Part shown: in pieces, positions 14,672 through 18,493 of the stretch
How positions within the stretch are numbered: position 1 is the stretch's first letter
Layout: every line of letters begins with the position of its first letter
Assembly (NCBI GenBank): GCA_019119835.1
Contig: DWWE01000075.1
Coordinates: forward strand, 1-46,596
Direction: 5' to 3'
DNA from: Candidatus Gemmiger stercoravium
GTDB lineage: Bacteria > Bacillota > Clostridia > Oscillospirales > Ruminococcaceae
DNA: 46,596 bases
Position numbers and translations under genes: made by a program
Notes under the pieces: model-generated
Told to the model about the DNA's origin: nothing
The model's database searches: none
What the model saw: only the letters and a program-made list of their open reading frames with translations

Positions 14672-14989
14672 TCAGGCTGCCCGGCCGCTGTGTACGGCCG
14701 GGAAAAGGACCGGCCGGACGGTGGGCAGGGTTGCCCGCCGGCCGTGGGGATCCGCCGCAGCCGGCGCCTTCGGGGCAGCCGGCTTGTTCAACTCGGCCGC
14801 CCTGGCAGGTTTCGGGGCCAGCAGACCGCAGAGGGCGTTCATGGCCAGCAGGCAGACCAGTCCCAGCCCCAGCGCGGCCGGGATCGGGAATGACCCCTGC
14901 GCGGCGGCGCTGGCCAGGGCCAGCAGAAAAAAACCGAAACAGACCAGCAGAAGCTGGCACACCCATTGTTTGAGCTGCTGCCATTTCAT
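14672..14989 (-). CDS. Small two-helix membrane protein, divergent from the S24 repressor
   Basis: A 105-residue protein with two hydrophobic segments (about residues 10-31 and 36-58) and a basic, alanine/proline-rich tail of about 45 residues without clear structure. GAGGAGG lies about 8 bases before the ATG. It matches no family I can name. Its 5' region runs straight into the repeat array and operators of the divergent XRE/S24 repressor, so it is a candidate target of that repressor. A role like the small membrane division inhibitors induced by DNA damage in other Firmicutes is possible but is speculation; no LysM domain is present. No clear promoter is visible. Confidence 0.6.
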   Translation of the reverse strand: MKWQQLKQWVCQLLLVCFGFFLLALASAAAQGSFPIPAALGLGLVCLLAMNALCGLLAPKPARAAELNKPAAPKAPAAADPHGRRATLPTVRPVLFPAVHSGRAA

Positions 14990-15051
14990 AAAAAAGCCTC
15001 CTCATAATTTGTCATCAAGATCAACAGGATTCCGATACCGGCCGGGCCAAT

Positions 15052-15366
15052 GTACAACCGGCTGTTGTTTTATGGGCGCCGCCCGCCGGCATCTCGCCTT
15101 GACTGCCGCCCGGGAAGTTGTAAGGTGGCAGGCGTACAACCAACCGTTGTTTTACAACGCCGGGGAAGACATCCGGCAACGCCGTCTTTCGGCGCTCTGC
15201 CTTGACTGCCGCCATGGGAAGTTGTAAGGTGATGGAGATACAACCGTCCGTTGTTTTACAACGCCGGGGAAGACGCCCGGTAACGCCGTCTTTCGGCGCT
15301 CTGCCTTGACTGCCGCCATGGGAAGTTGTAAGGTGATAGGTGTACAACCAACTGTTGTTTTACAAC
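15052..15366. repeat. Tandem array of 104-bp repeats between the small membrane gene and the S24 repressor
   Basis: Two full 104-bp units (15134-15237 and 15238-15341) differ at only about nine positions. A shortened, diverged unit of 82 bp precedes them (15052-15133), and the first 25 bp of another follow (15342-15366). Every unit begins with the palindrome ACAAC-N5-GTTGT plus a further TACAAC (absent from the first). Each contains a small hairpin CGCCG-TCTTT-CGGCG (full units only) and TTGACTGCCGCC, and ends with GTTGTAAGG. Together with the next unit the end forms GTTGTA-N12-TACAAC. With the A+T-rich stretch to 15504 it fills the 515-base gap between the two divergent genes. No coding content is convincing. 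Confidence 0.9.
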
Positions 15367-15392
15367 CCTAGAATAATACAACTTAGAGTTGT
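15054..15392. promoter_or_regulatory. Five-copy palindromic operator candidate, ACAAC-N5-GTTGT
   Basis: Identical 5-bp arms with variable 5-bp centres occur at 15054-15068, 15136-15150, 15240-15254, 15344-15358 and 15378-15392, spaced 82, 104, 104 and 34 bases. The centres differ (CGGCT, CAACC, CGTCC, CAACT, TTAGA) while the arms do not, as expected of a dimer-binding site. Further half-sites are TACAAC at 15361 and 15406, GGTTGTA overlapping the repressor -10 at 15460, and GTACAACC overlapping its ribosome site at 15494. Binding by the adjacent XRE/S24 protein is inferred. Confidence 0.65.
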
Positions 15393-15441
15393 TGTCAATA
15401 GAAAATACAACAAAATTTTGAAAAATAACGGCGGAATGCCC

Positions 15442-15470
15442 TTTACAAAAACTACCAAAGGTTGTATAAT
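15442..15470 (+). promoter_or_regulatory. Promoter of the XRE/S24 repressor gene
   Basis: TTTACA at 15442-15447 and a consensus TATAAT at 15465-15470 with a 17-base spacer. The half-site GGTTGTA overlaps the -10, so bound repressor would block polymerase. The surrounding sequence is conspicuously A+T-rich. Confidence 0.8.
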
Positions 15471-15504
15471 GGGACCAAACAAAGCCAATGGAGGTACAAC
15501 CGCC

Positions 15505-16131
15505 ATGTTCTCAGAACGTTTGAAGCAGGCCCGCAAGGCCAAGCAGTACAGCCAGGCGGAGGTCTCCCGCCTGCTGGGGGTGACCCAACAGGCCGTGGGG
15601 AAATGGGAGACCGGCCGTTCCACCCCGGACCCGCAGACGGTGGCGCGCCTGGCCGAGATCCTGGACACCACGGCGGACGGGCTGCTGGGGCTGCGCCAGC
15701 AGGCGGTGCCGGGGGCCGTGGGGCGAGATGCCTTTATGGGGTATGAGGAATGCCTGATCCCCGTGGTGGGCACCGTCCGCGCCGGCTACGGCGCCCTGGC
15801 CTTTGAAGAGGATTACGGCAAGGAGTATGCCAGTGTCAAGGACCCGGAAAACTACTTTTACCTTGTGGTCAAGGGGGACAGTATGGAACCCCGCATCTCG
15901 GACGGCGACCTGGCCCTGGTGCGCCGCCAGACCACGCTGGACAACGGGGACCTCGGGGTGATGGTCTATGGCCTGGATGGGGAAGGCACACTGAAAAAGT
16001 ACATCCAGCGCGGCAACTCGGTGATCCTGCACCCCTTCAACCCGGCGTATGAGGATCTGGTCATCAAAGGGGAAGAGCTGGACCACCTGTACATTGCCGG
16101 CAAGGTGGTGGAGACCAAGGCCAAGTGGTGA
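15505..16131 (+). CDS. XRE/S24 LexA-like repressor (HdiR type)
   Basis: A 208-residue regulator. Residues 1-62 form an XRE helix-turn-helix (YSQAEVSRLLGVTQQAVGKWETGR). Residues 82-208 form an S24/LexA-like self-cleavage domain: the Ala93-Gly94 scissile pair in TVRAGYG, Ser126 in KGDSMEP and Lys164 in GTLKKYI. All three elements for RecA-stimulated autocleavage are present. The ATG at 15505 has GGAGG at 15490-15494; a longer in-frame extension to 15340 is rejected because it would cover the promoter. It probably represses itself and perhaps the divergent gene at 14672 until DNA damage. No prophage genes are nearby, so it looks like a chromosomal stress regulator. Confidence 0.88.
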   Translation: MFSERLKQARKAKQYSQAEVSRLLGVTQQAVGKWETGRSTPDPQTVARLAEILDTTADGLLGLRQQAVPGAVGRDAFMGYEECLIPVVGTVRAGYGALAFEEDYGKEYASVKDPENYFYLVVKGDSMEPRISDGDLALVRRQTTLDNGDLGVMVYGLDGEGTLKKYIQRGNSVILHPFNPAYEDLVIKGEELDHLYIAGKVVETKAKW

Positions 16132-16346: not shown

Positions 16347-17714
16347 ATGATGGATCTGGCTGAAAAACTGGAGATCCTGGCGGACAGCGCCAAGTACGAT
16401 GTGGCCTGCACGTCCAGCGGGGTGGAGCGCCCCGGCCGCGCCGGCCGCCTGGGCAGCTGCCGGGCCCCGGGCATCTGCCATTCTTTTACCCCGGACGGCC
16501 GGTGCGTCTCGCTGCTCAAGGTGCTGCTCTCCAACGTCTGCAGCTATGACTGCAGCTACTGCGTCAACCGCCGGTCCAACGACCGCCCCCGGGCCAGCTT
16601 TACCCCGCGGGAACTGGCCGAATTGACCATCGGCTTTTACCGCCGCAATTATATTGAAGGGCTGTTTCTGTCCAGCGCGGTGGCCGGCAGCCCGGACGCC
16701 ACGATGGAGCGCATGATCGAAGCTCTGCGCATTCTGCGGCAGGAATACCGCTTCAACGGCTACATCCACGCCAAAACCATCCCCGGGGCCGATCCGCTGC
16801 TGGTGGAGCAGCTGGGCCTGCTGGCGGACCGGCTCTCGGTCAACATCGAACTCCCCAGCGAGGCCAGCCTTGTCCGCCTGGCGCCGGACAAAGGCCGGAC
16901 CGCCATTCTGCGCCCAATGGGCCAGATCGCCCGCCGCAGTGCACACAGCCGCCAGGAACTGACGGTCTATCGCCATGCGAAGGCGTTCGCCCCGGCCGGG
17001 CAGAGCACCCAGATGATCATTGGCGCCACCCCGGAAAGCGACCGCCAGATCCTGCGCCTGACCGAAGCGCTTTATCAGAAATATGCCCTCAAGCGGGTGT
17101 TTTACTCCGCCTATCTGCCGGTGGTGCAGGACCCGCGTCTGCCGGCTCTCACCACCCGGCCGCCGCTTCTGCGAGAACACCGTCTCTATCAGGCGGACTG
17201 GCTGCTTCGGTATTACCACTTCTCGGCCGAAGAACTGCTCAGCGACGAGCAGCCCAACTTTGATCCCTACCTGGACCCCAAGTGCAGCTGGGCGCTCAAC
17301 CATCCGGAATACTTCCCGGTGGAGGTCAACACCGCCCCCGGGCCCATGCTGCTGCGGGTGCCGGGCATCGGGCCCAAAAGCGCCCGGCGCATCCTGGCGG
17401 CCCGGCGCGGCCAGCATCTGGGGCTGGCGGAACTCAAACGGATCGGGGTGGTGCTCAAGCGGGCCCAGTACTTCATCACCTGCGGCGGGCGGGCGCTGAC
17501 CCGCTCCACCCGCCGGGAGATCGCCGGCGCCCTGGTGGACCCCAAGGCGTTCGGCGTGGGGGTGCAGCAGCTCTCGCTGGATGATTTCTGCGCAAAACCG
17601 CTGCCGGACGCTGCGCCGGCGCTGCACCGGCTGGCGGCCAGCGGTGTGGAAGCCCGGCAGGCCGCCGAACTGACCCGACAGGAGGCGATCACATGGATTA
17701 CCCGGCGTATGTGA
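16347..17714 (+). CDS. Putative DNA modification/repair radical SAM protein (TIGR03916 type)
   Basis: A 455-residue radical SAM enzyme. The cluster motif C-x3-C-x2-C is at Cys65, Cys69 and Cys72 (VCSYDCSYCVNRR). The N-terminus has the family's further cysteines (VACTSSG, GSCRAPGICHSF). The C-terminal third has a helix-hairpin-helix DNA-binding motif around residues 335-352 (VPGIGPKSARRIL). This layout and the partner gene immediately downstream match the paired families described as radical SAM and DUF4130 DNA-metabolism proteins, which are sometimes linked to uracil-DNA glycosylase domains. Its reaction is not established. The start ATG (or the adjacent one at 16350) follows GGGGGAGG. Confidence 0.9.
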   Translation: MMDLAEKLEILADSAKYDVACTSSGVERPGRAGRLGSCRAPGICHSFTPDGRCVSLLKVLLSNVCSYDCSYCVNRRSNDRPRASFTPRELAELTIGFYRRNYIEGLFLSSAVAGSPDATMERMIEALRILRQEYRFNGYIHAKTIPGADPLLVEQLGLLADRLSVNIELPSEASLVRLAPDKGRTAILRPMGQIARRSAHSRQELTVYRHAKAFAPAGQSTQMIIGATPESDRQILRLTEALYQKYALKRVFYSAYLPVVQDPRLPALTTRPPLLREHRLYQADWLLRYYHFSAEELLSDEQPNFDPYLDPKCSWALNHPEYFPVEVNTAPGPMLLRVPGIGPKSARRILAARRGQHLGLAELKRIGVVLKRAQYFITCGGRALTRSTRREIAGALVDPKAFGVGVQQLSLDDFCAKPLPDAAPALHRLAASGVEARQAAELTRQEAITWITRRM

Positions 17715-18493
17715 CCGATACGGCCTACCGATACGACGGCAGCTTCCAGGGCTTTCTGTGCTGCGTCTTTGAGAGTTTTGCCCGCCATGAGCTTCCCGCG
17801 GCCATCCACCCGCCGGAGGAAGGCCAGACCAGCCTGTTCGGCGCCCGCGAGATCCCCACCGATCCGCGGCGGGCCGGGCGGGTGGCGGCGGCGCTGCACC
17901 GGCTGGGCACCCCGGTGGAGCGCTGCGTTACCAGCGGCTTCCTGGCCGACGAAGCCGGCAAGGACCTGACCCTGCTGCATTTTCTGCGTCTGTGTTTTGC
18001 GCAGGGGCCGTCCGCTTTCTGGCGGATGGGCGACGCCCCGGTGGCGCAGGCCCAGGCCCTGGCCCGCCGCGTGGACGGCGAGGCCGGCAAGTACATCGAA
18101 TTCCTCCGCTTTGAGGAGCACGGCGGGATGCTCGGCAGCATCATCCACCCGCGAAACCGGATCCTGCCGCTGCTCCGCGGGCATTTCTGCAGCCGCCTGC
18201 CGGACGAGGAGTTCGTGATCTTTGATGCGACCCACGGCATGGCGCTGCTGTGCCGGGGCGGGCGGGTGCAGTACCTGCGGATGGAGCGGTTCGCCCCGCC
18301 GCCCGACGGGGAGGAAGACGCCTGGAAGCGGCTGTGGCAGCGGTTTTTCCATGCCCTGACCATCGAGGAGCGCCGCAACGAGCGCTGCCAGCGCACCCAC
18401 GCCCCCAAACGCTACTGGCAGGACATGTGCGAGATGGCGCCGGAGGGTCGGGGGCAAAAAAGCACTACCCATCCCGCGGAGGATATGGTATAA
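17693..18493 (+). CDS. DUF4130 / TIGR03915-type DNA-metabolism protein, partner of the radical SAM protein
   Basis: A 266-residue protein with the family's opening YRYDGSFQGFLCCVFESF, the central AGKYIEFLRFEEHGGMLGSIIHPRN region (as two blocks), and the C-terminal (P)KRYWQDMCEM. It overlaps the radical SAM gene by 22 bases, so the two are translationally coupled and probably act together on nucleic acid. No catalytic residues are known to me for this family. The last codons overlap a TATAAT sequence that may be a promoter for the Lrp-type gene. Confidence 0.88.
   Translation: MDYPAYVTDTAYRYDGSFQGFLCCVFESFARHELPAAIHPPEEGQTSLFGAREIPTDPRRAGRVAAALHRLGTPVERCVTSGFLADEAGKDLTLLHFLRLCFAQGPSAFWRMGDAPVAQAQALARRVDGEAGKYIEFLRFEEHGGMLGSIIHPRNRILPLLRGHFCSRLPDEEFVIFDATHGMALLCRGGRVQYLRMERFAPPPDGEEDAWKRLWQRFFHALTIEERRNERCQRTHAPKRYWQDMCEMAPEGRGQKSTTHPAEDMV

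Follow-up and report, generated by a model that had tools for sequence, protein, structure and literature searches.

A phage-type S24 repressor with a divergent small membrane gene as the probable core of a non-canonical SOS response in Gemmiger and related bacteria

The non-canonical LexA of Bacteroidetes, a group without LexA, has been shown to bind its boxes, and induction was shown as well (PMC8565304). As far as the available parts of that report go, it shares with the repressor described here a PF01381 helix-turn-helix joined to an S24 domain, a scissile Ala-Gly bond and a Ser-Lys pair, and also palindromic boxes before its own gene and before SOS genes in the absence of LexA; the words "Firmicutes" and "Clostridia" are both absent from its main text (PMC8565304). 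HdiR of Streptococcaceae is likewise an S24 LexA-like repressor of bacteria without LexA; it is cleaved with RecA, and in Streptococcus thermophilus it also controls cinA-recA (PMC8565304). FddR of Francisella, a phage-type repressor that also combines PF01381 with PF00717, responds to DNA damage (PMC13148647). A parallel of another kind is offered by SosA of Staphylococcus aureus and YneA of Bacillus subtilis, small membrane proteins encoded beside the SOS repressor, as is the small membrane protein described below. SosA is divergent from lexA, and both proteins are under SOS control and are removed by proteases, according to the available parts of the reports (PMC6851548, PMC13396833). Among the matches listed in open-licence full text, we found no description of an SOS regulator of Faecalibacterium or Gemmiger.

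The window, by which we mean the whole stretch of 46,596 nucleotides that was analysed, belongs to a draft genome of Candidatus Gemmiger stercoravium (2.36 Mb, 120 contigs). At 15505..16131 on the plus strand it encodes an XRE/S24 repressor of 208 aa, the proposed non-canonical LexA. Its Pfam domains are HTH_3 (PF01381, 1.4e-15) and Peptidase_S24 (PF00717, 3.3e-24), and the LexA-type winged helix-turn-helix PF01726 was not found in the Pfam scan at E <= 0.001. On the TIGR00498 LexA model the protein reaches 71.7 bits against a cut-off of 110.95, with a match confined to the C-terminal domain; the score under the cut-off and the HTH_3 domain without PF01726 rule out its identity as a canonical LexA. 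The cleavage site and the Ser-Lys dyad were aligned to those of T. maritima LexA, and all 81 proteins compared (81 of 81) keep Ala93-Gly94, Ser126 and Lys164, in agreement with the first-pass annotation of this DNA, which had described an intact cleavage site and catalytic Ser and Lys in the adjacent XRE/S24 protein. The predicted fold has a mean pLDDT of 78.5 and a poorly modelled linker; it resembles the structures of LexA and of lambda repressor, most closely in the C-terminal domain, and HppE enzymes are also present in the fold search from rank 36 on. The phage repressor family phrog_4 matches over the full length of the protein, and the repressors of two Marinitoga viruses are 38-40% identical to it. 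Among named relatives, the closest repressors are those of an uncultured Gemmiger MAG (91% identity) and of Candidatus Gemmiger stercoripullorum (90%). An orthologue with 71.5% identity is found in the phage record MT839076.1 ("Bacteriophage sp.", 4.6 kb, human faeces), which may be packaged chromosomal DNA and not phage. Invariance in the recognition helix of the named loci is biased, since these loci were retrieved with patterns that include part of that helix.

None of 35 genus genomes and none of 10 named genomes (two of them, L055 and L064, in both sets, and several being incomplete drafts) gave a LexA-model match over the cut-off, against 16 of 26 genomes from outside the genus, including both of the same-family genera sampled. 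A strong orthologue of the repressor is present in 33 of the 34 genus relatives, one of these being cut at a contig end. No orthologue was found in the remaining genome, G017 (assembly 86% complete), yet its recA box is present. With PF01381 and PF00717 in one protein, a lineage without a LexA match, and a common box in its own promoter and in those of recA and uvrB, the repressor looks like a non-canonical LexA of the phage-repressor type.

A promoter scan of 14950-15520 returned two divergent promoters only. The leftward promoter, TTGACA-N17-TATTCT (15370..15398, minus strand), scored 10 of 12, and the form TTGACA-N17-TAnnnT is present in all 30 Gemmiger-group loci, a set of the window plus 29 loci with Gemmiger, Subdoligranulum or Oscillospiraceae in their titles. 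The repressor promoter, TTTACA-N17-TATAAT (15442..15470, plus strand), scored 11 of 12, with TTTACA-N17-TAnAnT in 29 of the 30. The upstream sequence of one locus, L045, is too short, and neither the 30-locus nor the 80-locus counts include it. Five perfect ACAAC-N5-GTTGT palindromes start at 15054, 15136, 15240, 15344 and 15378. All five had been listed by the first-pass annotation, which had overlooked a sixth with a single mismatch (ACTACCAAAGGTTGT, 15451-15465) within the repressor promoter, putatively the repressor's own operator. At one mismatch or fewer, these six matches in the window compare with a shuffle mean of 0.46 and a maximum of 2, and 0 of 100 shuffles reached six. The fifth palindrome had been taken for a lone site near the repressor promoter, and in fact lies inside the promoter of the leftward gene (15398-15370 on the minus strand).

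The palindromes define three putative operators. O2 (15378..15392) occupies the spacer of the leftward promoter; it is present in all 30 Gemmiger-group loci, perfect in 19 and never with more than one mismatch. O3 (15451..15465) occupies the spacer of the repressor promoter. It carries one mismatch in 24 of the 30 loci and two or three in 5, with the promoter not matched in 1; O3 is perfect in none of them, and therefore the repressor's own operator may be weaker than the others. O1 is perfect in 27 of 30 and degraded in the G. formicilis-type loci L055, L057 and L060. Among 29 relatives, 26 have O1 exactly 34 bp from O2, and 25 have 72-75 bp between O2 and O3. Compared across loci, the ancestral module is one of the three putative operators O1, O2 and O3, of which the array described below multiplies only O1; with the leftward promoter and O2 in all 30 loci, the divergent module is old and fixed. 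The palindrome had been expected to be conserved in orthologous intergenic regions, and this is what we observed: a perfect copy lies within 400 bp of the repressor in 67 of 79 other loci, and the reversed-pattern control in 0 of 80. In the Faecalibacterium loci L074, L075, L077, L078, L079, L081 and L122, O1, O2 and the small membrane gene were not seen upstream of the repressor; the repressor promoter of the same loci retains O3 with one mismatch, and several of those Faecalibacterium or related genomes retain a perfect recA box.

The same palindrome is found before recA and uvrB. For recA, 35 genomes were searched; three gave no match, and the gene is cut at a contig end in G008 and in the window's own genome, where its box is thus unreadable, leaving 30 loci. 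Two of these were set aside (upstream sequence cut in one, start motif not found in the other), and a perfect box lies close upstream of the -10 element in all 28 examinable Gemmiger loci. For uvrB, a start motif was found in 26 of 30 loci; the box is perfect in 24 of these 26 and has one mismatch in the other two, one of which is the window's own genome. Decoys, namely the reversed pattern and nine permuted-arm patterns, were found upstream of recA in 0 of 28 and of uvrB in 0 of 26 loci. The classical Firmicutes LexA core box, GAAC-N4-GTTC, was likewise looked for, and occurs in 0 of 28 recA and 0 of 26 uvrB upstream regions. The recA box is perfect in 9 of 10 named genomes, among them four Faecalibacterium, Fournierella massiliensis, Gemmiger sp. 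An120 and Pygmaiobacter massiliensis, and absent in one whose repressor is 62% identical (L113/L237). Fournierella and Pygmaiobacter have just two perfect boxes per genome, one at the repressor locus and the other at recA; the sole perfect box of the genome of Faecalibacterium I4-1-79 is at recA.

Counted over whole genomes, eight genus genomes hold 55 perfect boxes against 26 copies of the reversed pattern, and four named genomes together hold 10 against 11 (Faecalibacterium 1 against 2, Pygmaiobacter 2 against 8). With an excess of about twofold or none at all, the case rests on the position of the boxes and not on their number, and single boxes without an assigned target should not be trusted. 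Outside the repressor locus, 32 of 40 perfect boxes in the eight genus genomes have a recognisable target within 700 bp, and 8 of the 40 have none within that distance. The targets are recA (8, in all eight genomes), uvrB (6), gyrB-type genes (4) and one each of rmuC, a Y-family polymerase and SRAP, the last two as the second ORF from the box; phage-type genes (9) and serine recombinases (2) make up the rest. In the window's own draft genome 10 perfect boxes were found. Five of them lie beyond the repressor locus and precede rmuC, a gyrB-type gene and two phage-type genes, with one lacking an assigned target.

Taken together with its placement in the divergent module, the palindrome looks like the SOS box of a Gemmiger-centred clade. 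The first-pass annotation had read the palindromes as operators of the adjacent XRE/S24 repressor, an assignment favoured by conservation and placement, although the set of sites extends beyond that locus to a clade-wide SOS box. Set against the described systems, as these appear in the available parts of the sources, the box differs from GGA-N5-TCC or CTAA-N5-TTAG of the Bacteroidetes, another phylum; binding and induction were demonstrated there, whereas the Gemmiger system is described here from sequence (PMC8565304). The HdiR regulon is minimal and consists mainly of error-prone polymerases (PMC8565304), while recA, uvrB, rmuC and gyrB-type genes carry boxes here, a comparison made by description. 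With FddR, recA is reported not to be induced (PMC13148647), and here recA has a perfect box. We consider it very probable that a non-canonical LexA runs an SOS response in Gemmiger and its kin and that the locus is the divergent, autoregulated core of that response; this estimate stands despite the weak genome-wide counts because the positions of the recA and uvrB boxes carry the case. It would likely be a further case of a phage-type S24 repressor in SOS control, and one that takes in recA and uvrB. Both Faecalibacterium and Gemmiger are commonly found as gut commensals; now that a box, a repressor and a set of targets have been defined, the response to DNA damage, mutagenesis and the activation of phage-type elements can be tested directly in this clade.

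The gene divergent from the repressor (14672..14989, minus strand), identified as an ORF and examined by alignment and modelling, encodes a protein of 105 aa with two predicted helices and a C-terminus ending in RAA. Its model (pLDDT 73, pTM 0.41) has helices at 2-31 and 36-57 and a low-confidence tail, and no Pfam, NCBIfam or PHROG match was obtained. A divergent small hydrophobic ORF is present in 71 of 81 loci, with proteins of 79-105 aa; one of the 71, L122, looks spurious and is counted, and the ten loci without an ORF passing the length and hydrophobicity filter include several from Faecalibacterium. The C-terminus is [A/V/S/I/T]A in 66 of the 71 proteins (AA in 48), against 7 of 414 background ORFs, which are unverified ORFs of at least 220 aa. 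This ending presumably resembles ssrA-like degrons. The gene is divergent from the repressor and has a box in its promoter, like the genes of the small SOS proteins mentioned above; its product does not have their single membrane helix. In the available parts of the reports YneA has one membrane helix with a LysM domain and SosA one predicted helix (PMC6851548, PMC13396833), in contrast to the two predicted helices of the leftward protein, which, unlike YneA, has no LysM or other detected family. The product is a candidate short-lived SOS checkpoint protein, a role that we propose by analogy with SosA and YneA, which are also small membrane proteins, induced by SOS and removed by proteases. 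This family of divergent small membrane proteins is unannotated; its conserved C-terminus is striking, and its proposed role is open to a clear test.

In the mechanism that we propose, a dimer of the repressor would bind the ACAAC-N5-GTTGT boxes at O1, O2 and O3 and before recA, uvrB and other repair genes. Upon DNA damage, RecA filaments would trigger self-cleavage of the repressor at Ala93-Gly94, and the regulon would be switched on together with the leftward gene. The two-helix hairpin with its small-residue C-terminus would then act as a short-lived checkpoint protein. In the window, the array copies of O1 in the leader might provide extra repressor-bound roadblocks, which is the least certain step.

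The array itself was found by Tandem Repeats Finder at 15096-15366, with a period of 104 and 2.6 copies. Counted from each palindrome, its blocks measure 82, 104 and 104 bp, followed by a 23-bp stub; the composition given by the first-pass annotation, two near-identical 104-bp units with a shortened third and a stub, was therefore accurate. The shortened block (15054..15135, delimited by block alignment) is identical to the two 104-bp blocks at 59 and 63 of 82 aligned positions. The 104-bp blocks (15136..15239 and 15240..15343) are identical at 95 of 104 positions, and the terminal stub (15344..15366) consists of the last O1 copy plus 8 bp, as seen with Tandem Repeats Finder and block comparison or alignment. 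The putative operator copies, found by palindrome search, are O1a (15054..15068), O1b (15136..15150), O1c (15240..15254) and O1d (15344..15358). Directly after O1, the 104-bp blocks and the stub carry an outward pair of half-sites, GTTGT-TTT-ACAAC (15146-15158, 15250-15262, 15354-15366), which is missing from the first copy at 15054.

All four O1 copies lie downstream of the leftward start site inferred from the promoter, in the 5' leader of the leftward gene (14990..15363, minus strand). Expanded by the array, this leader measures 374 nt, compared with 49-150 nt in 29 relatives under the same promoter rule. O1a stands 64 bp from the leftward start codon, as the operator does in the relative L044, and O1d keeps the ancestral 34-bp distance from O2 seen across the genus, so that the expansion can be placed between these two anchors. 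On these spacings the array is a local tandem expansion around the putative O1, private to this genome. A DNA search of 61 genomes detected the array block in this one alone, and the array therefore lies outside the core switch. The first-pass annotation had suggested that it may give cooperative or graded repression of the two divergent genes, an effect that may not exist; the array multiplies O1 alone, within the leftward leader. The 104-bp unit was also considered as a mobile repeat, and gave no match at E 0.01 among 50,697 phage and 72,556 plasmid records; no exact 28-mer of it was found in viral contigs, the DNA search gave no match in 60 relatives, and a short-word BLAST against a set of the loci gave matches of just 13-18 bases. 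As a structured leader RNA or member of a known RNA family it gave three Rfam matches, all far under the gathering scores, and a fold z of -1.47, and as a set of rightward promoters (TTGACT-N17-TAAGGT) it was absent from the promoter scan.

What the array does, if anything, is the part of the proposal most exposed to other readings. Transcription can be blocked by a repressor that sits a short way past the start site, so that extra copies of O1 may tighten the repression of the leftward gene; added roadblocks holding this gene more firmly off are an effect to which we give somewhat under an even chance, and about as likely as neutrality. With the core switch working as proposed, the array could equally be a selectively neutral tandem duplication in the leader that carried extra boxes along, and this has nearly even odds in our estimate. 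It fits a repeat confined to one genome of 61, the presence of two perfect boxes at most within 400 bp in the 79 other loci, the ancestral layout kept by O2, O3 and the last O1, and the unremarkable fold of the leader RNA. The conservation of the arms weighs on both sides. All four O1 copies have perfect arms, with 0 of 10 arm columns variable against 23 of 82 other comparable columns, which speaks against neutrality; the difference is only nominally significant (p = 0.03) and is not significant when the two 104-bp blocks are compared by themselves (p = 0.39). Within the array, arm invariance is thus weak evidence for selection, and it is because the arms are conserved across species that they become strong evidence; the first-pass reading of invariant arms and variable centres as a mark of selection draws its strength from the comparison between species and is weakly founded inside the array. 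The genus-wide fixed distance of O1 also tells against a neutral array, since it puts the copies where a bound repressor could matter.

A more remote reading makes the array a sink or local reservoir, whose boxes would titrate or concentrate the repressor and thereby shift the SOS threshold or the autoregulation. In its favour, three of the 10 perfect boxes found in the draft genome are extra copies of O1, and with a helical repeat of 10.5 bp per turn the spacings of 82, 104 and 104 bp come to 7.8, 9.9 and 9.9 turns, near whole turns; however, the array sites are on one chromosome, and relatives without an array hold 5-9 perfect boxes, so that whole-genome totals are similar with or without it, and we regard this reading as improbable. 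That the array is an artefact of a draft assembly in 120 contigs is very unlikely, given blocks that differ from one another as described, a contig that extends about 15 kb and 31 kb past the array, and assemblers that collapse such repeats more often than they create them.

The phage affinities of the repressor suggest an alternative for the locus as a whole, a resident prophage-type repressor that governs its own element alone, the boxes of recA and uvrB being those of another regulator. The full-length phrog_4 match (3.5e-44), CI-like proteins of named phages with up to 40% identity, and the boxes that also precede phage-type genes are in its favour. Against it, the gene is flanked in the window by the chromosomal cutC side and by DNA-repair genes: a TIGR03916 DNA repair radical SAM gene (16347..17714, plus strand), which is a conserved neighbour, and a TIGR03915 putative DNA repair gene (17693..18493, plus strand), both identified by matches to these models. 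The TIGR03916 gene is near the repressor in 66 of 80 named loci and downstream of it in 61. With a strong orthologue in nearly all genus relatives, as counted above, and with the same kind of box in its own promoter and before recA and uvrB, a repressor confined to its own element is scarcely credible. In the Pygmaiobacter-group loci L108, L110, L112, L119 and L121, the TIGR03916 gene is on the leftward side and not downstream of the repressor.

Extending the non-canonical LexA proposal, one may imagine that Gemmiger, Faecalibacterium and their kin built a full SOS response on a captured phage repressor after the loss of LexA; that the leftward proteins represent a new family, namely membrane checkpoint proteins with two helices and a C-terminal degron that are induced by SOS; that the copy number of the 104-bp operator block is an evolvable dial on the checkpoint gene in this species; and that, through the box on a recurrent capsid-type element, DNA damage is linked to DNA packaging in the gut. 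As a whole, this extended picture is rather unlikely to hold. GTA-like packaging has been described in Gemmiger and Faecalibacterium, with a GTA operon found in Faecalibacterium and not in Gemmiger, according to the available parts of the report (PMC12946183).

Among nine genomes, four have the box before a sigma-like regulator ORF and again, 497-875 bp away, before a terminase-small-subunit-like ORF (L006 at 3966 and 4841, in C53 of the window's own genome; L133, L143 and L150), and three more have a box before the sigma-like ORF alone (L126, L138 and L156). The terminase match of the boxed phage-type ORF is weak, and the recurrence of the arrangement suggests a phage or capsid-type element under host SOS control. 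In G011, two perfect boxes 41 bp apart stand upstream of a serine recombinase gene (L136, 2001-2056), perhaps the result of a mobile element taking up the box of its host.
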